From a virus: 25,282 nucleotides of DNA. Positions 5,650 through 25,061 of the stretch are shown here, piece after piece. The notes under the pieces are model-generated. The model was not told where the DNA came from, did no database searches, and was given only the letters and a program-made list of their open reading frames with translations. Both the position numbers and the translations under genes were made by a program. The stretch spans positions 1-25,282 of the IMG/VR virus record IMGVR_UViG_3300042294_000364, one strand, 5' to 3'. Numbering within the stretch: position 1 is the stretch's first letter; every line of letters starts with the position of its first letter.

Positions 5650-5931
5650 ATGGATTTCCTAGCGCTGGTGCATGAGGTAGGCAAGATAGCCAAGCCTATG
5701 CACCAAGACTCACTTGAAAAACCCGATTGGGATTCACCGTTTAACGAACTAGGCTTTGACAGCCTAGATATGCTCATGGTGGGCTTGTATATGTGCGACA
5801 TATACGGGGTGCCGGAAGAGGTTGGCAAGACCATGCAGGTCACAAATTGCACCCAATTGAAGTCATTTATTGACCAGCATAAGACCAAGGAGCCGGAAAG
5901 CGTAGAAGCGGCTATTGAGTCGGTCAAATGA
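5650..5931 (+). CDS. Acyl carrier protein
   Basis: This 93-residue acidic helical protein carries the phosphopantetheine attachment motif G-F-D-S-L-D with Ser38, at the start of helix II, followed by MLMVGLYMCDIYGV as in bacterial ACPs. Length and the acidic, helical pattern (helix I about 2-15, helix II 38-52, then TQLKSFIDQHK as helix IV) fit the family. To work it must be converted to holo-ACP by a host phosphopantetheinyl transferase, since none is encoded here. It is preceded by the leader TAAGGGGCTAAATATG and overlaps the ketosynthase gene by four bases, so the two are probably translated together. Whether it carries fatty acyl, polyketide or other chains is unknown. Confidence 0.9.
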   Translation: MDFLALVHEVGKIAKPMHQDSLEKPDWDSPFNELGFDSLDMLMVGLYMCDIYGVPEEVGKTMQVTNCTQLKSFIDQHKTKEPESVEAAIESVK

Positions 5932-7028
5932 TCTACCTTAATTACTGGAATACGGCCTGTACTGAGCAAACTACGCTCATGGATGACCTAATTTTTCCCC
6001 AAAAGGTACATTTTTTCCCCTCTACATACGCCAAAAAAGACACCGGATTGGTCTACGCGCCACACCGCTTAGTCGAGATGGTCTGCACCCCCCAAATAAT
6101 TTCACATATTAGGGAAAACCCTAAGTCTAAGCAGGCGTTCATTTTGGCAGGCGGCAACCAACACTTTGCCGGAATCAATCCTCGCAAGATTAAGGACACC
6201 CAGTTGTCCTACGTGTACAAGTTTCTACCGTTTACGCTTACACAAGTGTATGCAGGCAGGCTGGCGCAGATGATGGGGGTGCATGATCTTATCCAAACTG
6301 ACGCTTCTGCCTGCGCGTCTAGCCTGAAGGTGATGACGGACGTAAGAAACCTGATGTTGTATGAAAAGTTTGATCGGGTAGTCGTTTTAAGTGTCGAAGA
6401 TGCTGTTTCCAACTCTGTTTTGGAGTTTTTTGGGGAGGCAAAGGCTATTTTGACCCCAGAAGAGGAAGAAAAAGGGGTGTTACCAAGCGCTTTTGACAGC
6501 CAAAACTACGGTTTTCATGTCGCGCAGGGCGCTGTTTTGGCAATCTTTGAGGCTACTCCCCAAGAAAACACAATTGCTGCACTGCGTCATAGTTCCAATG
6601 CTTCAGAAAGAAGTACCAATGCCATAGGGCAGAACCCTAGCGGTCAGGGATTCATCCGTGCGATCAATGGGTGTGTGGATCAGGGGCTAGACCCGGAGGC
6701 TATAAGCGTGGTAAAGAGTCATGGCACGGGTACCAAGTCCAACAATGAGGCCGAAAAGAACGCTTTGAAAGACCTAAACACCCATTTTGTCGCTACCAGT
6801 TACAAGCCAAAAATAGGGCATACTATGGGCGCTTCGGGCTTGCTAGAAACCCTATTATTGTTAGAAAATATGAGGAATGGGTTTGTGCCTGAAATACCCA
6901 ATCGTACAGAGGATGACTACGTTTACCTGTCAAAGCCTGTAGAGGCACCCAAGGGGCTAGTGTTAAGTTTGGCGGCTGGCATGGGCAATATCTACTCTGC
7001 CGCCGTGTTTGAGCCTATGGGGGCATGA
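5928..7028 (+). CDS. Beta-ketoacyl-ACP synthase (KAS II / FabF-like)
   Basis: This 366-residue thiolase-fold condensing enzyme would extend an acyl chain by decarboxylative Claisen condensation on ACP. The full triad is visible: Cys129 in TDASACASSL, His265 in SHGTGTKSNNEAE, and Lys293 plus His298 in KPKIGHTMGASGL, spaced as in FabF. It is shorter than the usual ~410 residues because the N-terminal strand region is degenerate (no G-L-G-x-x-S/T-P). The C-terminal gate that normally reads G-F-G-G-T-N is AAGMGN here, so the gating phenylalanines are absent, which suggests altered substrate handling. It overlaps both the ACP gene and the following gene by four bases. Substrate unknown. Confidence 0.88.
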   Translation: MIYLNYWNTACTEQTTLMDDLIFPQKVHFFPSTYAKKDTGLVYAPHRLVEMVCTPQIISHIRENPKSKQAFILAGGNQHFAGINPRKIKDTQLSYVYKFLPFTLTQVYAGRLAQMMGVHDLIQTDASACASSLKVMTDVRNLMLYEKFDRVVVLSVEDAVSNSVLEFFGEAKAILTPEEEEKGVLPSAFDSQNYGFHVAQGAVLAIFEATPQENTIAALRHSSNASERSTNAIGQNPSGQGFIRAINGCVDQGLDPEAISVVKSHGTGTKSNNEAEKNALKDLNTHFVATSYKPKIGHTMGASGLLETLLLLENMRNGFVPEIPNRTEDDYVYLSKPVEAPKGLVLSLAAGMGNIYSAAVFEPMGA

Positions 7029-7480
7029 TGGCACAATTAGTTGATAGCCAGCAACAAGAGTTAAGTGTCGAGGAAATCCTTGACATTGTAAACTGGTCAT
7101 CTCCAGAGCCAATGGAGACTGCTCGTTTTATCGCTATGATAAACGCAGAACTCCAGATGCCGAATACATTGTTCATTCGGCAAGGCAATACTCTATTCAT
7201 CATCCACAAGGCAGACCGTGGTGTGGGATTGTTCCGCGCCTTGAACGCGGATACTGCTAGAAACTTTCTTGCAAACAGCGTGGAGTTTATCAAAGCCTGT
7301 CACAAGATGGGTTTTGACACGATGGCTACTCAATTTAGTGATGCGTCACTGCTAAACATATTTCGGTTTATTTCGGAAAACCCTCCAATTGAGGGCATGG
7401 GCTATGAAGCAAAACAATTGAATGACGGTAGTTTCTACGTTACGGTTAAAACGGGGCCAGTTAGAGGTGCGAAAAAATGA
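7025..7480 (+). CDS. Hypothetical protein, possibly GNAT-like
   Basis: This 151-residue protein overlaps the ketosynthase stop (two ATGs in tandem at 7025 and 7028). A long mixed alpha/beta region contains NTLFIIHKADRGVGLFRAL, a helix FLANSVEFIKACHKMGFDT, then TQFSDASLLNIFRFISENPP and GMGYEAKQLNDGSFYV, ending in a basic tail. The order strand-strand-helix-strand-helix-strand with the phrase MGFDT(x)3-F-(S/x)D is reminiscent of small phage proteins assigned to the GNAT fold, but no acetyl-CoA loop (Q/R-x-x-G-x-G/A) is plain. If it is a GNAT-fold acyltransferase, its neighbours would supply acyl-ACP. It may equally be a structural or chaperone protein. Tentative. Confidence 0.4.
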   Translation: MMAQLVDSQQQELSVEEILDIVNWSSPEPMETARFIAMINAELQMPNTLFIRQGNTLFIIHKADRGVGLFRALNADTARNFLANSVEFIKACHKMGFDTMATQFSDASLLNIFRFISENPPIEGMGYEAKQLNDGSFYVTVKTGPVRGAKK

Positions 7481-8977: not shown

Positions 8978-10138
8978 ATGCCCGGAATGAAAAGTTTAGT
9001 TGGGATGGGTGGTTCTGGAAATGCCCGTGAACTCGCTGAGATGTTACGCCAACTTGGTCGAGGCCGGGATACCGTGCTTGCCCATATCACGCCAGAAGAG
9101 GCTCAGATGCTCATGGATGCTGGTGGCTCCGGGGATATAAACCCCAACACTGGCTTGCCTGAGTTTCAAGATGCAGATATTCAGGGCGATGAAAATTTCT
9201 ACGGTGTATCTACAATTCCTTATCAGGGTGACGTAGAAATGCAAGAAGGTGGTTTTTACGGACAAACGCCAACGGCAAGAATTATTGAACGCCCTACAAG
9301 TAATCAAGGTCGACAATTGGTCACAACTTTACTTGAACCAACGCAAGAGCGAGCATTGCCAGCAAGAGTTTATGCTAATTTAACAGGAACTAAACCAACT
9401 ATTTACCAACCACAAACACAGTATGCAGCAGAGTTTGGACTTACGGATGCAGAACTGCAACCCGGTGGATTTTACGGTGGTCGCGCTCCAACAGCAGAAG
9501 AATACGCCGCAGTTTACCAAGAACCACAACCCGGATTTTTGCAAACAGCAGCCCAAGGAATTGAAGATACTGCGGCGCAATATAGAGATTTGGCACGACA
9601 GTATCCTACGGTTGCGAAGATGCTCTCTACTGGTGCCACTACATTGCCAGCCTTAATTAACGCAATACGTGCCAGAAGAGAGGCGGAAAAAAGTGCAGCG
9701 GAGTTTAGGCGCTTAGGTGAGCCTTTACGCGCACAAGGCGAATCGTTAAGGCAACAGGCTTTGTCTGGAACCTTGACTCCGCAACAGGCGGCTGCTCAAG
9801 AGGCTTCACGGGCAAGATTACGTCAGCAAGCGTCTACCCGTGGCGCAACCACTGGTACACAGCAGGCAATGATCGAAGGTCAGTTAGGACGTACTCGCGC
9901 TCAATTAAGCGAGACAAATCTTAACAATGCGCTCAAGCAATTAAACCTTGCTAACGCTTACGATGAAGCCGCTATTAAGGCAAAACTTGCCGCAGATGCG
10001 GAAATATCAAACAGCGTAGCAAACATTTTTGCAAACCTTGGTAGAGACATTACTAGCCAAGCACCAGCGCCGCAAAGGCAACAAACCGCTATGGCTACAC
10101 AACCTGAAGTTACACGCCGCCCTGACACGCGAGGATAA
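8978..10138 (+). CDS. Internal virion protein with FYG repeats
   Basis: This 386-residue protein begins MPGMKSLVGMGGSGNARELAE and contains GDINPNTGLPEF, a segment I recognise from internal virion proteins of aquatic phages. An N-terminal half with three Phe-Tyr-Gly turns (ENFYG near 73, GGFYGQTPTA near 92, GGFYGGRAPTAEE near 164) is followed by a long Ala/Gln/Arg-rich coiled coil (about 225-350). The C-terminus is Pro/Gln-rich. The recurring GGFYG unit is a notable internal repeat. Likely part of the inner virion or ejection machinery; no enzyme motif is seen. Confidence 0.6.
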   Translation: MPGMKSLVGMGGSGNARELAEMLRQLGRGRDTVLAHITPEEAQMLMDAGGSGDINPNTGLPEFQDADIQGDENFYGVSTIPYQGDVEMQEGGFYGQTPTARIIERPTSNQGRQLVTTLLEPTQERALPARVYANLTGTKPTIYQPQTQYAAEFGLTDAELQPGGFYGGRAPTAEEYAAVYQEPQPGFLQTAAQGIEDTAAQYRDLARQYPTVAKMLSTGATTLPALINAIRARREAEKSAAEFRRLGEPLRAQGESLRQQALSGTLTPQQAAAQEASRARLRQQASTRGATTGTQQAMIEGQLGRTRAQLSETNLNNALKQLNLANAYDEAAIKAKLAADAEISNSVANIFANLGRDITSQAPAPQRQQTAMATQPEVTRRPDTRG

Positions 10139-11430: not shown

Positions 11431-13764
11431 ATGGCACAAACAGGACGCAATTTACTGGCTCAAGAGCCACCAAAAGGCAGAAATTTATTTGCCGAAGAAG
11501 TTCCTACGCCTAGCGAACCAACTTCAGAGCCAGAAAGCAAACCAGACCAAAGATTTGATATTAGAAAAATTCCTGAATCTGCTGCTTATGGCGGATTGTT
11601 TGGTGCGCTTACGCCTGAGATTATGAAAGGCGCTGGAAAAGTTGCTGGAGTATTTCCGCAAACTCGCGCTTTTGCGCCAATGTTTGAGGTGGCTGGCGAG
11701 GCTGCTAGAGGCCGCAGGGCTGCCGGTGCCGTTGCTGGCGGGTTTTCTGCTGGCACAGGAGAGACTGCTGCTCAAACCGCAAAAGCACTTGGCGCAGGGC
11801 CGGTAGTACAAGAGGCTGCAAGATTTGGTACGGAAATATTAGGGCCTGCCGGATTGGTTGCTGCTGGTCGTAGCCTGCCGATCACGAGAGAGTTTATTAA
11901 AGATATTACTGAGGGCGGCTATAAAGACGCTACTCAGCGTTTTGCTGATCGTTTGCGTGGCCCTGCTGCCCGTGAGGCAAGAACTGCTCAAGAGGCGGTC
12001 ATTGGCGCTTTAGAAAAAGAAGCATCTGCACTACGAGCCGAAGGAAAATCAGTGGCAGACCAGATCATTGCTAACGCTGAATCTGAAGCCACAAGGTTAG
12101 CGCCTACTAACGCGCAACGTGCTGCTGAAATTAGACAGGCTGCGCGTAACGAGGCTAACAATATTCTTGCAGACATTGATCGCCAAATAAAGTTCAAGAG
12201 GGCTGCATTGAGCCGTACCCGTGGAGTTATTGCCGAGGCCGAGCGCGTTCCGGGGAGCGCCCGTGCTTTGATTGGAGAGCCAAGAGAGGCTACAGACGTA
12301 GGAACCACCTTACGTGACAGGATCACTCAGGTACAAGGTGATCGTTTAGCCAAACGAGAAGCGCAAATTGTGGCAGATAAAGAGGCGGTAAATGCTGAAG
12401 TTACTGCCAAACAGTCTGCTGGTAATTACGTTTCTAACCGACAAGATTACCAAGACTTGCTTAATTTTTTGAAAGTTAAGGCTGGTATTGGCGCACAAGG
12501 CGCAAAGCAACCGTTGCAATCAGAACGTGATCCCGGCACGGTTAATGCCCTTAAACAAGTTTATAACGCATTAGACAGTACAGAAACACAGGAAGTAGGT
12601 GGTGTAGCCGTTCCTAAGATTCCGGGTTTCGATGCCATTGACACGGTACGCCGCAGATTGGGTGAGGCTTTCCGTAACCCAACGGCTGAAGGGTATGGCG
12701 CTATTGGTCAAGGATATGCCCGTGATCTGTACAAACAGTTAAGCACAATTCTTGGCGAATACTCCCCAGCCAAGAAACAGTTAATCAAGAATTATGAAAA
12801 CCTATCCCGTGATCTTGATGTATTTAAGGGTGGCGCAGGGCAAAAGGCTACGGCTGTAGAACGGTTTGACCCGGACAGGTTTAAGACCTACGCCTCAGAA
12901 TTGCCTGCCAACTACTTTACCAATCGTGAGTCAGTTAAGGACTTGATTGAACTTACTGGTGGGGATCGCCGGTTTGTAGAACAACAGGCTGCTTCTTATG
13001 TTGCACGGCAACTAGAGGGTGTCAAAACACAACAGGCAGCGTCTAATTGGGAATTGGCTAATCGGGATTGGCTGGTTGAGTTTCCAGCGCTGCAAGGCTC
13101 AGTGAACCGCTATTTAGAATCTTTAGGCTTTGCAGAACGCCGTATCCCTAGGACTGAGGCTGTAGCCAAAGCACTAAAGACTGAGATTCCTAAGATTCCT
13201 GAACTTGCTCAAAAACGAGCAGGCCAGATAGTCAAAGGCGCGGAGAAAGAAGCCGCTGCGCTTGAACGCCCCGGTGCAGCACTAAGTGCTGAGGCAAGAA
13301 CTGCCGCAAGAGAAACGCAGGCCGCAGCATCGGCAAAGGCTAAGTTGCTATCTAGCCTTGGAAAAGACCCGGCAAAGGCTTTTGACGAATTGGTACGTGC
13401 CGGTAATACCGATAGGTTACGTGCTGCTGCCCCGGTCATTAAGTCTGATCCAGAAATACAAAGTCAATTTTTGGAAGGTGTACGGATTAGTCTTAGCCGT
13501 GTCAATCCACAAGAAATGGCTGATACCTACCGCCGTTTGATCCAGCCTGCCTTGTTAGATACCAAATTGATTGACGCTAAACAAGCCAAACAGATTGCCG
13601 ATCAGGTGCGTTTGGTAGAAATGTCAGTGGCTCCTGAGCGCCGTGCTATGGCAATCACTTCAGCCATTCGTAATGCGGTTACTGGAACGGCTGGTGCTGC
13701 CTCCTCTAGGCTTATGGAATCGCTAGGTTTATCTTTTACCCAACCATTTTTAGGAGGCCAATAA
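11431..13764 (+). CDS. Large coiled-coil internal virion / ejection protein
   Basis: At 777 residues this is the largest gene in the window. It begins MAQTGRNLLAQEPPKGRNLF, then a Gly/Ala-rich hydrophobic segment (about 50-140) that may associate with membranes, followed by very long Ala/Arg/Glu/Lys coiled coils (about 160-320 and 580-650). No protease or transglycosylase motif was seen in the translation, unlike some podoviral internal proteins. The stop overlaps the next ATG by one base. It is preceded by the site GAGGA and ends the large-protein block. Best read as an inner-core or ejection protein. Confidence 0.6.
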   Translation: MAQTGRNLLAQEPPKGRNLFAEEVPTPSEPTSEPESKPDQRFDIRKIPESAAYGGLFGALTPEIMKGAGKVAGVFPQTRAFAPMFEVAGEAARGRRAAGAVAGGFSAGTGETAAQTAKALGAGPVVQEAARFGTEILGPAGLVAAGRSLPITREFIKDITEGGYKDATQRFADRLRGPAAREARTAQEAVIGALEKEASALRAEGKSVADQIIANAESEATRLAPTNAQRAAEIRQAARNEANNILADIDRQIKFKRAALSRTRGVIAEAERVPGSARALIGEPREATDVGTTLRDRITQVQGDRLAKREAQIVADKEAVNAEVTAKQSAGNYVSNRQDYQDLLNFLKVKAGIGAQGAKQPLQSERDPGTVNALKQVYNALDSTETQEVGGVAVPKIPGFDAIDTVRRRLGEAFRNPTAEGYGAIGQGYARDLYKQLSTILGEYSPAKKQLIKNYENLSRDLDVFKGGAGQKATAVERFDPDRFKTYASELPANYFTNRESVKDLIELTGGDRRFVEQQAASYVARQLEGVKTQQAASNWELANRDWLVEFPALQGSVNRYLESLGFAERRIPRTEAVAKALKTEIPKIPELAQKRAGQIVKGAEKEAAALERPGAALSAEARTAARETQAAASAKAKLLSSLGKDPAKAFDELVRAGNTDRLRAAAPVIKSDPEIQSQFLEGVRISLSRVNPQEMADTYRRLIQPALLDTKLIDAKQAKQIADQVRLVEMSVAPERRAMAITSAIRNAVTGTAGAASSRLMESLGLSFTQPFLGGQ

Positions 13765-18094: not shown

Positions 18095-18457
18095 CTAATC
18101 ACCGTCTTTTGCGGACGGATGCACCTCTGGCTGTGCGGGGGGTAATTCATTTCCTAAAAACTTGAGCATATCCTCCCACCTGACTAAGGCCAATGACTTC
18201 TCGCCATCAGCCCTCATCACTACGATGGGAGTCTGCCCCTCCTTACATGATGCCTCTGCCTGCTTCATAAACTCATATACAGCGATTTTGCGGCGGCGCT
18301 TACACTCGATCACGAACTGCTCAAGGATAATGTCACCCTCGCCAGCCTCCTGATACTGTACTAGGTTGCGCCGTGTCTTATAGCCAAGGATCATGTACAG
18401 ATCATTGACTATATCTCTTTCGTACTGCGCCCCGCGCTGTCGCTGTAGTTTACCCAT
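18095..18457 (-). CDS. PD-(D/E)XK nuclease, Holliday-junction resolvase type
   Basis: This 120-residue protein shows the order of Hjc/RecB-like nucleases: Glu13 in RGAQYERDIV, then GYKTRR, Asp42 in GEGDI, Glu51 and Lys53 in VIECKRR, then a helix YEFMKQAEAS and a strand TPIVVMRADG. Together these are a complete E...D...ExK active site. It would resolve recombination junctions or replication branches. It sits in the recombination operon after the SSB-like and annealing proteins. The ATG overlaps the stop of the preceding gene by one base. Confidence 0.82.
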   Translation of the reverse strand: MGKLQRQRGAQYERDIVNDLYMILGYKTRRNLVQYQEAGEGDIILEQFVIECKRRRKIAVYEFMKQAEASCKEGQTPIVVMRADGEKSLALVRWEDMLKFLGNELPPAQPEVHPSAKDGD

Positions 18458-18616: not shown

Positions 18617-18898
18617 TTAAAAAGGTACATCGTCATCCAAGTCATCCATCGACTTGCTCGGAACTGGTTGCACGTTCTGCTTGTAGCCGGGATCGGGCTT
18701 CCAGTTATCTTCCTTCAGGGAGATTAGTGGCCCCCGTCCAGACTGCTTAGTCCATGCAGCAATCTTGACTGTCTCGCCTGCTGCATAGGCACGTTCTAAT
18801 TTTAACTCCCCCTTCCAATCTGGCCCTGCTCCACCTTCTGCTTTTTTAGTGTTGGTGAATAGTACGCCAGTACCCGGTTTGCGCTCTTCGTATGCCAT
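18617..18898 (-). CDS. SSB-like small protein with acidic DDVPF tail
   Basis: This 93-residue protein has a basic, beta-rich body (KPGTGVLFTNTKK, DWKGELKLERAYAAGETVKI, GRGPLISLKEDNWKPD) and ends KSMDDLDDDVPF. The terminal D-D-(V/I)-P-F with acidic residues matches the partner-binding tip of bacterial SSB. The body is too short for a standard OB-fold SSB, so this could be a compact phage ssDNA-binding protein or a host SSB-interactor mimic. ATG follows AAAGGAA. The stop lies just before the ribosome site of the Cys-rich gene. Confidence 0.6.
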   Translation of the reverse strand: MAYEERKPGTGVLFTNTKKAEGGAGPDWKGELKLERAYAAGETVKIAAWTKQSGRGPLISLKEDNWKPDPGYKQNVQPVPSKSMDDLDDDVPF

Positions 18899-19126
18899 CT
18901 ACTTTCCTTTCGCCAAATGATAACGTGCAAACATCTTGCCGTTTTGTTTTACATCTTCCGTGATTATGTTATGCCCTGCTTTACGCAGGTCATCGATCCT
19001 TGCTGCCAACCTTGCACAGCCAAATAAACTCAAAGCGTTCATCGCGGTTAGGCTATTACCCTTGCTTAAATAATTCAAAATCTCTCCGTTTTGTGTGCGC
19101 TTTGTGTTACTTGCTACCTGCTCCAA
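18899..19126 (-). CDS. Helix-turn-helix protein (HTH_39-like)
   Basis: This 75-residue protein reads NGEILNYLSKGNSLTAMNALSLFG-like, then CARLAARIDDLRKAGHNI and KMFARYHLAKGK; this is the pattern of the small phage HTH_39 domain, with a recognition helix CARLAARIDDLRK. The start appears to be TTG at 19126, with a weak AGG upstream; no in-frame ATG exists earlier in the domain, so a start in this area is needed. It may regulate the operon or act at DNA ends. It lies between the annealing protein and the SSB-like gene. Confidence 0.72.
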   Translation of the reverse strand: MEQVASNTKRTQNGEILNYLSKGNSLTAMNALSLFGCARLAARIDDLRKAGHNIITEDVKQNGKMFARYHLAKGK

Positions 19127-19137
19127 GATTGGCCTAA

Positions 19138-19959
19138 TTACTTTGGGAGTGCGTCACTCGCTGCCTTGAGTAAACCCGCTGTGATTCTGTCTGCTATCTC
19201 TACGTGTACACCATTTAGAAGGCTCTGAGTGGATTCGTTGGCAGAGATAAGATCACTAATCTTTTGCACCTTCTCCTCACCAGATAGTTTCTTGGAATCC
19301 AAAATCTTAATGCCCATCTTCTCAAAGGCGGCTAGATAATCATCTTCGTTTGCGTGGTAGGAATATGGCTCATCTGATCCGGGTAGCAATAAGGCCCAAT
19401 CACCCTGCGGCTCTTCAATGACCGTAGGGATTGGCTCTGCCTGTGGTATTACGATATTTTCCTTATGGGCATTAGGGATTGTTTCGACTTCGGTTTCGTC
19501 CAGCATCCCAAGTCCACAGTGAGCAAGCACTGATCGGCGTATTGCTTTGGTAGTGCATTTAAGCACTGCGTTAGCAAGTGCATCTCCCTTGAGGTTTCCA
19601 ATGCTAACAGCCCCTTGATTTTCGCTAGAGCGTCCATCAGCCCCGGTAACTCTGACTGAGACAACGTAAATATCATCCACCCGTTCTTTATTCGTAATTT
19701 GAGTTGACAGTTTGTGGAGGTTACAGAGTTGTTGCGTGGCTCCTGAATTGGCATATAACACCTGTTTCCCGGAAAGGTTCAGCAGGTCAAACGGTTTGGC
19801 ACTTGGATCAAGGCCAATCTGCTTGCAGCGGTAGTTGTAGTACTGCACCTTCTGAACTTGGTTTAGCCCCGACAAGTCCCCTTTTGTGACAATTGATTCA
19901 ATGATCGCTGGATCAATAACAGCGACTTCACCCTTCGGCATACTGATTACGTTACTCAT
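19138..19959 (-). CDS. Phage single-strand annealing recombinase (RecT/Erf-like)
   Basis: This 273-residue protein has the pattern QVQKVQYYNYRCKQIGLDP, AKPFDLLNLSGKQVLYA, a strand-rich core (TQITNKERVDDIYVV) and LKCTTKAIRRSVLAHCGLGM-LDETE. This matches a widely distributed aquatic-phage annealing-protein family (annotated RecT-like), with the K-(A/C)-x-T-K-A-x-R-R signature. It would anneal complementary ssDNA at ends resected by the neighbouring exonuclease. The C-terminal third (from about 165) is acidic and variable. Leader: ribosome site AAGGGG and upstream TGATTAG element. Confidence 0.78.
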   Translation of the reverse strand: MSNVISMPKGEVAVIDPAIIESIVTKGDLSGLNQVQKVQYYNYRCKQIGLDPSAKPFDLLNLSGKQVLYANSGATQQLCNLHKLSTQITNKERVDDIYVVSVRVTGADGRSSENQGAVSIGNLKGDALANAVLKCTTKAIRRSVLAHCGLGMLDETEVETIPNAHKENIVIPQAEPIPTVIEEPQGDWALLLPGSDEPYSYHANEDDYLAAFEKMGIKILDSKKLSGEEKVQKISDLISANESTQSLLNGVHVEIADRITAGLLKAASDALPK

Positions 19960-19968
19960 ATTAGCCCC

Positions 19969-20871
19969 TTACTTGATTAGAAAACGCCGACTTCCCGGCT
20001 GCTCAGTTACAAACTTCTCATAAGTTTCAGGCAATGCCTGCTTCAACAATTCAGCGTTAAATCGCTTGCTAGACTTGCTAGACTTCCACGTGGCAAGGAT
20101 TGAGCCATCGAAAGCCTTCAGCGTAGCCTTCGATTGCATAGCCGCTTGGATCATTTGCTTTAAGCCTTCTTCAGCCTCCTCGTACTCTTTCATCTTGGCC
20201 TTGATCTGCCCTAACTGCTGGCAGGCCAATTCAAGCGCAGCGTTAGCCACCATGTCTGAGCCATCGTCAACCTTGTATAGGTCTTTGGTTGCGTCAGCCA
20301 TCGTCACTGGGTTCCAGTTGCGGGTCTGCACCTGCGCCCAGAACTCAGCCATAGCCCGAATATGAGCCTCGGCTTCTAGTTGTGTAAAGTTTTGCGGAAA
20401 GTGGCATAACTCCTGACCGCCAAAGAGAACAACCAAAACGATGTTCTGCACCCCCTCATGGACTATCTGCTCGTGCAGACATTGGGCGCGGTACTTCTCA
20501 GAAACCATCTCCGTGCCATCATCGCCATACTTCTTGCGCTGGTGTAGGCCAAGGTTCTTGACCTCGTAGAGAGTCTTGCCATCGGTAGAGATGTAGTCAA
20601 AGTGTGAGGCCATCCAGTTATGCTTTGAATGGTGCAGGGTGTAGTCTGCGTCTTTGAACTCCCAACCCCACCTGCCAGCAGCGATCCGCATAATAGGTTC
20701 TTGCATAAGCAAGCCCATCTGTACGGGTTCTACGTCTGAGAGATCAGGTGCATCCTTCTGCCCAACCTTTTGCAGGTAGACTTCACCGCCCTTACCTTCA
20801 GCGATCATGCCTGCGTCACTGCTCCAAATTGCCTTGTCGCGCACGGCAAGGTCTTTTTCGCTTAATGCCAT
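19969..20871 (-). CDS. YqaJ-family viral recombinase / 5'-3' exonuclease
   Basis: ATG 20871 (300 residues) is preferred over an upstream in-frame TTG at 20883, because GGGG sits correctly before the ATG and not before the TTG. The catalytic pattern of YqaJ nucleases is visible: MGLLMQEPIMR (Glu58), Asp92 in SHFDYIS, Glu103 and Lys105 in TLYEVKNLG. Downstream a helical/coiled C-terminus (QIKAKMKEYEEAEEGLK) ends SRRFLIK. It would resect dsDNA ends for the annealing protein encoded immediately downstream, as a RecE/RecT- or Red-like pair. Confidence 0.85.
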   Translation of the reverse strand: MALSEKDLAVRDKAIWSSDAGMIAEGKGGEVYLQKVGQKDAPDLSDVEPVQMGLLMQEPIMRIAAGRWGWEFKDADYTLHHSKHNWMASHFDYISTDGKTLYEVKNLGLHQRKKYGDDGTEMVSEKYRAQCLHEQIVHEGVQNIVLVVLFGGQELCHFPQNFTQLEAEAHIRAMAEFWAQVQTRNWNPVTMADATKDLYKVDDGSDMVANAALELACQQLGQIKAKMKEYEEAEEGLKQMIQAAMQSKATLKAFDGSILATWKSSKSSKRFNAELLKQALPETYEKFVTEQPGSRRFLIK

Positions 20872-20898
20872 ATCAGCCCCCAAATTAAGATAGCGAAG

Positions 20899-22480: not shown

Positions 22481-22506
22481 AATAAAAAGGGGGGCTTTCG
22501 CCCCCC
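22481..22506 (-). terminator. Intrinsic terminator of the 87-residue gene
   Basis: On the - strand a 7-bp stem (GGGGGGC/GCCCCCC) with a GAAA tetraloop is followed by TTTTTATTT. It lies about 6 bases after the stop of the gene starting at 22775, isolating that gene from the operon that follows. Confidence 0.88.
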
Positions 22507-22775: not shown

Positions 22776-22809
22776 TGAGTACCTCCATGATTAGGATTGT
22801 TAAAGAACG

Positions 22810-22829
22810 ATGAGAGTCTTCACTCTCAT
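22810..22829 (-). other. 5' mRNA hairpin of the 87-residue cassette
   Basis: A perfect 8-bp inverted repeat (ATGAGAGT/ACTCTCAT) with a 4-base loop lies just after the promoter, where the transcript should begin. It may stabilise the mRNA end or act as an operator. Confidence 0.55.
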
Positions 22830-22834
22830 TCACT

Positions 22835-22862
22835 ATTATACACGTTCTATACAGTTTGTCAA
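22835..22862 (-). promoter_or_regulatory. Near-consensus sigma70 promoter
   Basis: On the - strand, TTGACA (22857-22862) and TATAAT (22835-22840) are perfect consensus hexamers separated by 16 bases, one shorter than the optimum. It directs transcription into the 87-residue gene. It begins about 30 bases left of the DnaA-box array. Confidence 0.85.
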
Positions 22863-22892
22863 GTCACTTGATACCACGATATGAAAATATGC

Positions 22893-23116
22893 TGTGGATA
22901 ACTAAAAATATCTGTGGATAACTCTGTGGATAACTTATTTGAGTTGTGGATAACCTTGTGGATAACCTGTGGATAACTTGGTTGGGATATAGCATATATG
23001 TACTTATTACGGGCGTATACTATAGGACATATATTATAAATATAGGACGTAGAATATACGCCCTTACCTAGATAACAAAACATATAGCCTATAGGTTGGC
23101 ACGGGGCTGTGGATAA
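22893..23116. other. Candidate replication origin: seven DnaA boxes
   Basis: TGTGGATAA, the complement of the DnaA box TTATCCACA, occurs perfectly at 22893, 22913, 22925, 22945, 22957, 22968 and 23108, all in one orientation. Spacings of 20, 12, 20, 12 and 11 bases across the first six suggest helically phased DnaA binding. An AT-rich segment (about 22980-23095) follows between boxes 6 and 7, as expected for a duplex-unwinding region. The region has no convincing gene. It implies use of the host initiator for replication; an alternative is a DnaA-titrating decoy. Confidence 0.8.
23011..23063. repeat. Inverted repeat and TATAGGAC repeats in AT-rich segment
   Basis: GGGCGTATA (23011-23019) and TATACGCCC (23055-23063) form a perfect 9-bp inverted repeat separated by 35 bases. 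Between them lie two direct copies of TATAGGAC-x-T (23021 and 23041), 20 bases apart. This lies in the AT-rich unwinding candidate between DnaA boxes and may be a second protein-binding site or cruciform. Confidence 0.6.
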
Positions 23117-23127
23117 CTTTGGGACTC

Positions 23128-23164
23128 GCACCGCCGCTGTCCAACGGATCAGCAGGCGGGGTGC
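23128..23164. other. Long GC-rich imperfect hairpin beside the last DnaA box
   Basis: GCACCGCCGCTG pairs with CAGCAGGCGGGGTGC with small bulges, about 12 bp, around a 10-base loop. It lies 12 bases after the seventh DnaA box. Such a structure could help origin function, for example as a primer or single-strand-start structure, but it could also be chance. From about 23165 to 23398 I see no gene and nothing beyond scattered TGCAAT motifs and CTAG/GGCC-rich palindromes. Confidence 0.4.
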
Positions 23165-23398
23165 GTGTACGTGTGAAATCCTAAATCTTAAATTAATGGC
23201 AAACGCAAAGTGCAATGCCCTAAAAACCAAATCCTGATTTTTTTGCAATAGAAAATGCAATCTTATTTTTGGAGAGCCAGCAATCAAGAAGAATTGGAGC
23301 CTTACGCGCAAGCAGTGCATAGGCATATATGGTGACGGGCCATATCGGGCCATGGTGCCTGCGCTAGGGCATGGCCTAGGCTAGCCCCTAGGGGATAA

Positions 23399-23425
23399 GA
23401 AAAAAGGCCCGTATAGGGCCTTTTA
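23399..23425 (-). terminator. Bidirectional intrinsic terminator
   Basis: AAAAGGCCC pairs with GGGCCTTTT around a GTATA loop. On the - strand it is followed by six T and lies just after the stop of the 77-residue gene, so it should end the ardC unit; on the + strand it has four T. It separates that unit from the origin region. Confidence 0.82.
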
Positions 23426-23432
23426 ATCGCGT

Positions 23433-23666
23433 TTAATCGCTATTCAATCGTTTCCAAGTATCGGTTAGCGCTCGGTTGGCACTGTGATAGTTAGAATCTT
23501 CGAGAGCATAGGTTAGAGTATCAAAACAAGCGTTAGCATCCCATTTGAAATGGTTGGCAAGAATCACCCCTAAAACTTCGGAGTCGCTTACTTGATCCCA
23601 ATACTTAGGATCAAATTTTTCTTTTCGCGTTTGGTCAATCAATTCAGGCAAGATTAAATCAATCAT
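23433..23666 (-). CDS. Hypothetical 77-residue acidic protein
   Basis: The protein starts MIDLILPELIDQTRKEKFDP, then YWDQVSDSEVLGVILANHF, CFDTLTYALEDSNYHSANR and ends WKRLNSD. Helical, acidic, no family recognised. AAGGGG lies upstream of ATG 23666. It follows ardC after a leader with two short hairpins and ends at the terminator. Confidence 0.58.
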   Translation of the reverse strand: MIDLILPELIDQTRKEKFDPKYWDQVSDSEVLGVILANHFKWDANACFDTLTYALEDSNYHSANRALTDTWKRLNSD

Positions 23667-23748: not shown

Positions 23749-24630
23749 CTAGGCCGCTAGGGGCATTTCCTCGATTGACTCCGCCTGCTTACCCTTGACT
23801 AGGTAATCCATGGCGGACTGGGCCTTACCTGCCGCGCTAATAATGAATTTCTTGTCATTTTTTAGGGCCTTGAGCCACGATTCAATATAGGCCGCATGGC
23901 GTAGGTCACCGTCAAGGCCACAATGAGCGCAAAGCATTGCCGCGCCCAATTCCGCGACTAATTCCTCGTAGGCGTAATTCTCCGAACCGAACCGGGCCGG
24001 GGTTAGACGTTTAAGACGTGATTCATGGCCCGTAGCGTGAATGGTTTCATGTAAGAGAGTCGCATAGTAAGACTCTCGATTCTTGAATTGCCCCTTTTCA
24101 GGCATGTGAATCGAATCATTACTAGGCCGAAAAAACGCCTCGTTTCCGCCATGGTGTAGGCCGCCAGCGAGTGCAAGGGAATCGGTTAGGGATTGGGCCT
24201 TTTCGCATGGTTCCCATGTTTCAGGTGCAAGTGACTCGCGTACCGGTAGGGCTAGATCTTCGCATTGATCTACATTAAACACGTAATAATGCTTAAGCAT
24301 GGGCACGTGCGTTACTTGATCCGGGTTAGTCTTGTCCTTAACAGCCAAGGGTTTCCAGAAAACAATGGGCGTGCCCTTTTCCCCGGCCTTAACGTGACCG
24401 CCTAAGGTATTGGCTTGTTTCAACGTAACCCATGCGTTACTGGTGAACGTACTACCCATTAGCGTTAAGAACGTCCAATTCGCGCCCCGGTAGATCGTGC
24501 CCGATGCCGGGTTATAGGGCTGGCCGTTAGCGTTACCGTTTCGCACGCTTTTCCAAGGTTTAACCCATGGCGCGGCACCTTGCTCTAATTCCGCGATGAT
24601 CCGATCTGTGATTACTTGTGCAATATCCAT
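23749..24630 (-). CDS. ArdC-like antirestriction protein
   Basis: This 293-residue protein has an N-terminal ssDNA-binding domain (about 1-125; APWVKPWKS, ANGQPYNPASGTIYRGANW, GEKGTPIVFWKP, YYVFNVDQC), followed by a C-terminal zincin-type domain with HETIHATGHESRL (194-206) and YEELVAELGAAML, giving the HExxH metal site plus downstream Glu. This two-part layout is the ArdC antirestriction family, first known from plasmids, which protects incoming ssDNA or dsDNA from restriction. ATG follows AAGGGGCTAATT. It lies on the early strand, next to the origin, a sensible place for a gene acting at entry. Confidence 0.85.
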   Translation of the reverse strand: MDIAQVITDRIIAELEQGAAPWVKPWKSVRNGNANGQPYNPASGTIYRGANWTFLTLMGSTFTSNAWVTLKQANTLGGHVKAGEKGTPIVFWKPLAVKDKTNPDQVTHVPMLKHYYVFNVDQCEDLALPVRESLAPETWEPCEKAQSLTDSLALAGGLHHGGNEAFFRPSNDSIHMPEKGQFKNRESYYATLLHETIHATGHESRLKRLTPARFGSENYAYEELVAELGAAMLCAHCGLDGDLRHAAYIESWLKALKNDKKFIISAAGKAQSAMDYLVKGKQAESIEEMPLAA

Positions 24631-24858: not shown

Positions 24859-24945
24859 CCTATATATATCTATATTTTTTTTTATAGGTTTTATATATAC
24901 GATAGTCTTTTACTATATAGGTGTTCTTATATATCTATATATAGG
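24859..24945. repeat. AT-rich leader with TATA-type repeats
   Basis: TATATATCTATAT appears twice (about 24863-24875 and 24928-24940), and CCTATATATA/TATATATAGG form an inverted repeat at the borders. The gap from 24798 to 25061 holds no gene. This stretch may contain the promoter for the 24797 gene and ardC, or a second melting site. A short inverted repeat CCCCAT/ATGGGG lies at 25013-25043 nearer the right edge. Confidence 0.45.
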
Positions 24946-25061
24946 ATCGTAAGATCATAGGGCGATAGATTGGGGGATTGATCCTAATCGCGCCCAACGC
25001 GTTTAGGGAATTCCCCATGCCCTAGGCCATACCCGCTATGGGGTAACGGCACTATGAGCGT

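Follow-up and report, generated by a model that had tools for sequence, protein, structure and literature searches.

Phased DnaA boxes flanking AT-rich DNA in an uncultivated phage lineage form a candidate replication origin

The DNA analyzed here, the window, is an IMG/VR phage contig of 25,282 bases, classed as linear and probably a fragment. Read along the minus strand, the region under study runs from ardC through a small gene, a hairpin, a lone DnaA box, an AT-rich segment, six more DnaA boxes, a promoter, an 87-aa gene and a second hairpin into the early operon (Table 1). The promoter starts 30 nt past the last box of the cluster. The 87-aa gene is a cassette that some relatives lack together with the last boxes, and the three extra boxes of the window travel with it. 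In the late region, a gene for an acyl-carrier-protein-like product (5650-5931, weak match) adjoins one for a FabF-like beta-ketoacyl synthase (5928-7028). This pair, for which no counterpart was found in the relatives G003 or G008, looks like acquired metabolic cargo.

Table 1. Features of the window around the DnaA boxes and in the early operon
Feature	Position	Strand	Basis or remark
Holliday-junction resolvase-like (RusA) / PDDEXK nuclease	18095..18457	-	phrog_244 E 8e-19; PF24608
SSB-like protein, early operon	18617..18898	-	phrog_18154 E 9e-6
Small winged-helix protein HTH_39, early operon	18899..19126	-	PF14090 E 9e-14
RAD52-fold single-strand annealing protein, 273 aa, early operon	19138..19959	-	AlphaFold2 + Foldseek
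RecE-like / YqaJ recombination exonuclease, early operon	19969..20883	-	phrog_434 E 6e-43; PF09588
Terminator-like hairpin	22489..22506	-	closes the 87-aa gene
First gene past the promoter, 87 aa	22512..22775	-	no assigned function
Sigma-70 promoter	22835..22862	-	TTGACA-16-TATAAT, 12/12 matches; reads into early genes
Cluster of six perfect DnaA boxes (84 nt)	22893..22976	-	exact TTATCCACA
Boxes in cluster	22893-22901, 22913-22921, 22925-22933, 22945-22953, 22957-22965, 22968-22976	-	
Candidate DNA-unwinding element between boxes	22977..23107		63% AT; many TATA/CTATAG steps
Imperfect inverted repeat in AT-rich segment	23008..23066		28-nt arms, 79% complementary
Lone seventh perfect DnaA box	23108..23116	-	far side of AT-rich segment; orientation as in cluster
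Terminator-like hairpin + T-run	23402..23424	-	between upstream gene and box region
Small gene upstream of box region	23433-23666	-	
ArdC-like antirestriction protein, upstream of box region	23749..24630	-	PF08401, PF18818; phrog_7245
Least stable 100 bp of record	24860..24959		divergent region 5´ of ardC; without DnaA boxes

As the sequence of the annealing protein placed it in no clear family (a Pfam Rad52 match fell slightly below the cut-off), its structure was predicted. With the AlphaFold2 model (pLDDT 79) as query, human RAD52 chains headed the Foldseek list at a probability near 1 (1.00), and two of these chains gave a Z of 8.4 and an rmsd of 3.0-3.8 over 98-108 residues. This predicted RAD52 fold makes it very unlikely that the protein is an initiator in disguise, and that candidate was rejected.

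Scanning both strands of the record for TTATCCACA revealed seven exact copies, all on the minus strand, with start-to-start spacings of 20, 12, 20, 12, 11 and then 140 nt, and no exact copy elsewhere on either strand. The sequence-only reading that had pointed to the locus gave the copy number, coordinates, spacings and single orientation correctly. Its description of a seven-copy array is right as to the seven copies and not as to a single array, given that six boxes lie tightly together and one stands alone beyond the AT-rich segment. The same reading had called the boxes stronger than chance, and the statistics agree: a first-order Markov model predicts 0.21 exact boxes in the whole record compared with the seven found, and the chance of five further boxes within 100 nt of one box is ~3e-18. 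A chance origin of the cluster was rejected on both figures. The number of one-mismatch sites across the window is ordinary (19 found, 24 expected), and the signal therefore lies in the exact, one-strand cluster. An open frame of 164 aa also runs over the array (22859-23353). Neither this frame as a gene nor the boxes as a coding repeat is credible, since the gap between lone box and cluster in the relatives (140, 142, 163, 164, 205, 231 or 256 nt) breaks the frame. The box element is real, selected and non-random.

The AT-rich segment that the sequence-only reading placed beside the boxes is equally real. By nearest-neighbor duplex energies, only one 100-bp stretch of the record is less stable than 22987-23086 (-1.130 kcal/mol per step, compared with a record mean of -1.386 and sd of 0.071), and in seven near-complete relatives (G001-G007) the segment beside or between the boxes also ranks second in instability, or third in G006. 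The whole segment is a candidate DNA-unwinding element adjacent to the boxes, as in origins of the oriC type, with an instability that is computed and a melting that is predicted. The inverted repeat within it is largely kept among relatives whose AT-rich DNA is of the 140-nt type. A cruciform or single-strand hairpin in the segment was rejected, the folding not being significant (z -1.0). The least stable 100 bp of the record lies 5´ of ardC, and the matching position ranks first in several relatives as well. This box-less region may simply be a promoter region and is also a possible second origin or promoter hub. In G008, which carries no boxes, the matching region has 17-nt tandem repeats (6787-6841).

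The sequence-only reading had noted that no initiator gene is visible beside the array, and this extends well past the neighboring genes: none is recognizable in the window or in the near-complete and circular relatives. The gene lists of G003 (38.3 kb) and G008 (38.0 kb; probably complete, since both of its ends fall within the annealing-protein gene) contain no recognizable polymerase, helicase, primase or initiator, being made up of structural genes, terminase, the recombination operon and small unknowns. Likewise, the annotations of MW202753 and MW202825, which are circular, list no recognizable DNA polymerase, helicase, primase or initiator. A novel initiator could be among the small early proteins of no assigned function. 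Once the boxes were masked, no other 8-mer was present three times in the intergenic region (22777-23402), which thus gives no sign of iterons. We also looked for DnaA-trios, which by the published rule require a box, a spacer of 0-16 nt and at least three NAN triplets (PMC8287927), and detected at most two triplets after any box, the level of chance. By this rule ~15% of bacterial origins have no trios, and the score of E. coli oriC is weak (PMC8287927). No Dam site (GATC) was present in the core, and no dnaA gene was found. The GC3 skew had an unexpected sign; its strand bias, and that of GC skew likewise, is confounded with gene direction, so that neither points clearly towards or away from an origin.

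Relatives were examined using the exonuclease and the terminase as anchors, in sets that partly overlap. With the exonuclease, boxes were detected at the corresponding place and in the same orientation in 17 of 24 viral loci that have upstream DNA, and not in the other seven, some of which are short. With the terminase, 12 of the 14 loci of the main clade (at least 81% identity, at least 5.6 kb upstream) have boxes 3.9-5.4 kb before the terminase gene, compared with 0 of 5 loci of a clade at 76% identity (~5.6 kb or more upstream); the circular GenBank relatives MW202753 and MW202825 have no arrays either. A search for the array in related phages, suggested in the sequence-only reading, thus had a divided outcome, with conservation in the main clade and absence from two side clades. 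In genome assemblies, the terminase relatives are contigs in MAGs of different phyla.

The core layout in array-bearing relatives is a lone box, 131-247 nt of AT-rich DNA and usually two to six boxes, the first cluster spacings being mostly 11 and 12 nt. In most of these relatives the counterpart of the lone box lies 134-256 nt from the cluster; it was not found in L027, L040, L257, L263, L265 and L269. The part most often retained is the three boxes closest to the AT-rich segment (11 + 12 nt pitch), and most relatives retain just two to four boxes. At the cluster position of L018 and L019, a single perfect box is preceded by eroded TTATCC copies. The AT-rich DNA occurs as several types that differ in length (140, 205, 231 and 256 nt), indicating that the arrangement is preserved while the sequence is swapped. 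A TTGAC(A/T) hexamer lies 12-61 nt past the cluster in most relatives; no promoter was found within the stretch examined of L018, L019 and L036, though the box-AT-box unit persists there.

The one-mismatch boxes of relatives comprise TTGTCCACA, TTTTCCACA, TTATACACA, TTATTCACA, TTATGCACA and a few others. Of 14 one-mismatch changes among orthologous boxes, ten affect position 3 or 5 (P ~1e-4 if the changes are independent, an optimistic value because orthologous boxes share ancestry). The DnaA consensus TTWTNCACA tolerates change at these two positions, and TTGTCCACA is found in actinobacteria. Judged by that consensus, the box changes fall mostly at positions where DnaA accepts them. Beyond the 9-mer, just the two preceding bases carry much information. 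In the box-less relatives, the relaxed consensus TTWTNCACA revealed no clustered hidden boxes; these clades have the same recombination operon and retain the HTH_39 gene. One of the box-less relatives, L245, encodes a protein (6533-7168) that matches the central domain of the DNA polymerase III beta clamp (PF02767, E 3e-9). Repeats of (A/C)TTGGATACGG are present in the intergenic region of another, L046 (6853-7080), and also beside or upstream of the lone box of L026.

Arrays of this kind extend beyond the lineage. A pattern of three same-strand boxes, with spacings of 11-26 nt allowed, was matched in at least 120 viral contigs (L047-L166), a count that does not equal independent events because the contigs are partly related. 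Among the matches listed, 92% of spacings are at 11-12 or 19-24 nt (chi-square 712, 15 df), and the boxes thus tend to lie on one helix face. The array-bearing contigs among these matches range from 27 to 66% GC, and their AT excess is strongest 5´ of the cluster. Maximum instability near the arrays exceeds z 2.5 in 67% of the contigs listed and in 15% of random stretches, a control that is random and not intergenic. A terminase gene (mostly the small or large subunit, assigned by sequence clusters) lies close to the array in 49 of the 120 matches listed. A few replication initiators and helicases are also among the neighbors in these matches, so the arrays are not tied to any one gene context.

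Named phages carry arrays too. The T7-like phages phiEap-1 (71-174 and 39009-39112), Shigella A7 (22-135 and 39903-40016) and Klebsiella ZK1 (19-198 and 45566-45745) have them at both genome ends, within direct terminal repeats, and encode their own polymerase and primase-helicase. In phage T5 (L287), one perfect and three one-mismatch same-strand boxes lie within the annotated injection stop signal (9437-9518). In the microvirus bajarodmic virus 162 (L200), a single-stranded DNA phage, the Rep gene is followed immediately by five DnaA boxes with a pitch of 11-12 nt (277-331). In the open-licence literature, where older work may be missed, we did not find phage DnaA-box arrays described as a class; for one phage, an Ori-Finder prediction that includes DnaA boxes is available (PMC11512268). 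Phased DnaA-box arrays are widespread in viral contigs.

Among known systems, oriR, the plasmid-stage origin of phage/plasmid P1, is a proven origin. Checking it directly (locus L286), we found same-strand boxes at 12650 (one mismatch), 12891 (one mismatch) and 12900. As in the phage studied here, same-strand boxes lie on both sides of a core; those of P1 are a near-match on one side and, ~240 nt away, a tandem pair on the other. P1 oriR too is extrachromosomal phage DNA, and P1 uses host DnaA. DnaA boxes flanking an AT-rich core are likewise what we observed. The P1 boxes, however, flank five RepA iterons and five core Dam sites, next to repA, whereas the present element has no iterons, no core GATC and no rep gene, and its boxes are more numerous and perfect. 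With iterons and a rep initiator gene both absent, it is not of the iteron class. The likeness to oriC lies in a DnaA-box cluster, here beyond chance (seven exact copies, ~1e-18), beside an easily melted AT-rich element, and in the head-to-tail pitch of 11-12 nt. It differs from oriC in lacking a dnaA gene, Dam sites and, by the published rule, DnaA-trios, and in that the AT-rich DNA sits between a lone box and the cluster, in a phage of ~38 kb. The arrays of the T5 injection stop and the T7-like terminal repeats resemble it as DnaA-box arrays in phage non-coding DNA near early genes, but T5 and the T7-like phages encode their own replisome, and the T7-like arrays, placed in terminal repeats at both ends, have no least-stable DNA next to them, whereas the present array occurs once in the record. 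The E. coli sites datA and DARS also have several DnaA boxes away from oriC and alter DnaA supply. DARS requires a core of boxes in opposed orientation, and datA is marked by boxes together with an IHF site; all seven boxes here share one orientation, so the DARS core is absent, and they flank unstable DNA.

The reading we prefer, and to which we give a little more than an even chance, is that the element serves the phage as an origin of replication like oriC or P1 oriR, opened by host DnaA and followed by recombination-dependent replication. Host DnaA would bind the phased same-strand boxes on both flanks of the AT-rich segment and oligomerize, melting the segment, onto which host DnaB and the replisome would be loaded for a theta start. 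The perfect promoter beside the cluster would direct transcription of the recombination operon, and the RecE-like exonuclease, RAD52-fold annealing protein and SSB would then bring about a recombination-dependent, concatemer-forming mode for packaging. We infer the opening step, that is, DnaA binding, melting and helicase loading, from the anatomy and the P1 oriR precedent, and the switch to recombination from the early gene set. Because an oriC-like switch is present and the phage's own starter gene was not found, the phage probably borrows host DnaA.

The chromosome- or plasmid-style origin proposed in the sequence-only reading is thus upheld in its anatomy, with boxes that flank unstable DNA, are conserved in many relatives and have no visible initiator, and is weakened by the two side clades without boxes. 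Those clades also lack a recognizable initiator, so not every relative needs the array, and, as they share the operon, the lineage can evidently start without boxes. The least stable DNA of the window, moreover, lies at 24860-24959 and not between the boxes. Nor does an array alone make an origin, since phages with their own polymerase and primase-helicase (phiEap-1, A7 and ZK1) carry similar ones. Arrays have at least one other use in nature, which holds our confidence in the origin near one half.

One real rival is promoter control. From its sites upstream of the perfect sigma-70 promoter, DnaA would either activate or repress transcription of the early recombination operon and couple it to the cell-cycle state of the host. 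The cluster stops 30 nt short of a 12/12 promoter, the boxes are oriented along the operon, and most relatives have the hexamer past the cluster. This explanation is weakened, however, by the variable distance of the promoter (12-61 nt, or none found, as in L018, L019 and L036) while the box-AT-box unit stays, and a promoter site leaves the lone box beyond the unstable DNA unexplained; we consider it unlikely. The other real rival, likewise unlikely, is that the array is a decoy that soaks up host DnaA, so that initiation on the host chromosome stops during infection. Each phage genome brings seven strong sites, and ~30 copies of it would equal the ~200 DnaA monomers present per host origin (PMC5835720), and titration gains some weight from the similar arrays in phages that encode their own replisome and can replicate without DnaA. 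The array would in any case titrate DnaA at a late stage of infection. The pool is nevertheless not titratable by one entering genome, the two to four boxes retained by most relatives are a weak sponge, and titration explains neither the flanked unstable DNA nor the single intergenic location.

T7-like phages carry arrays in their direct terminal repeats and T5-like phages in their first-step-transfer DNA, with DnaA boxes in the T5 injection-stop region, and a terminase gene lies close to 49 of the 120 arrays listed. These positions would suit a role at the terminus or in DNA entry, with DnaA on the first-entering DNA anchoring it, pausing entry or protecting ends. For this lineage we consider such a role improbable: no terminal repeat or fixed end is known, the near-complete contigs (36.6-41.7 kb) break at differing places, the array lies ~4-5 kb from the terminase gene, and the T7-like arrays tested have no adjacent least-stable DNA. 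More improbable still is that the boxes are iterons for a phage-encoded DNA-binding protein and match the DnaA box by coincidence. The early operon does encode the HTH_39 winged-helix protein and several unknown proteins, but what is conserved is the DnaA 9-mer plus little more than two flanking bases, the intergenic region contains no second repeated motif, the variants track the DnaA consensus, the motif recurs in unrelated phages, and the HTH_39 gene is present in box-less relatives too.

Most well-studied phages supply an initiator or helicase loader and bypass the once-per-cycle control that the host exerts over DnaA. We give somewhat less than an even chance to the broader proposal that a large uncultivated phage lineage has its own oriC-like origin, fired only by host DnaA and without a phage initiator, and that similar phased arrays may have evolved in, or been passed among, many unrelated phages. 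If this is true, a bare DnaA origin must fire repeatedly through a protein kept under tight limits by the host, and infection must obey or exploit the DnaA-ATP cycle of the host, since the origin would be fired by host DnaA with no phage initiator. This raises the questions of how a bare DnaA origin would escape RIDA-type control, and whether the recombination operon takes over once DnaA is exhausted. The phased array offers a simple way to recognize, from sequence, phages with a possible dependence on host DnaA, which is directly testable, and the helically phased arrays, which the survey suggests are common in many kinds of phage, are a ready set for probing origin, decoy and entry functions.
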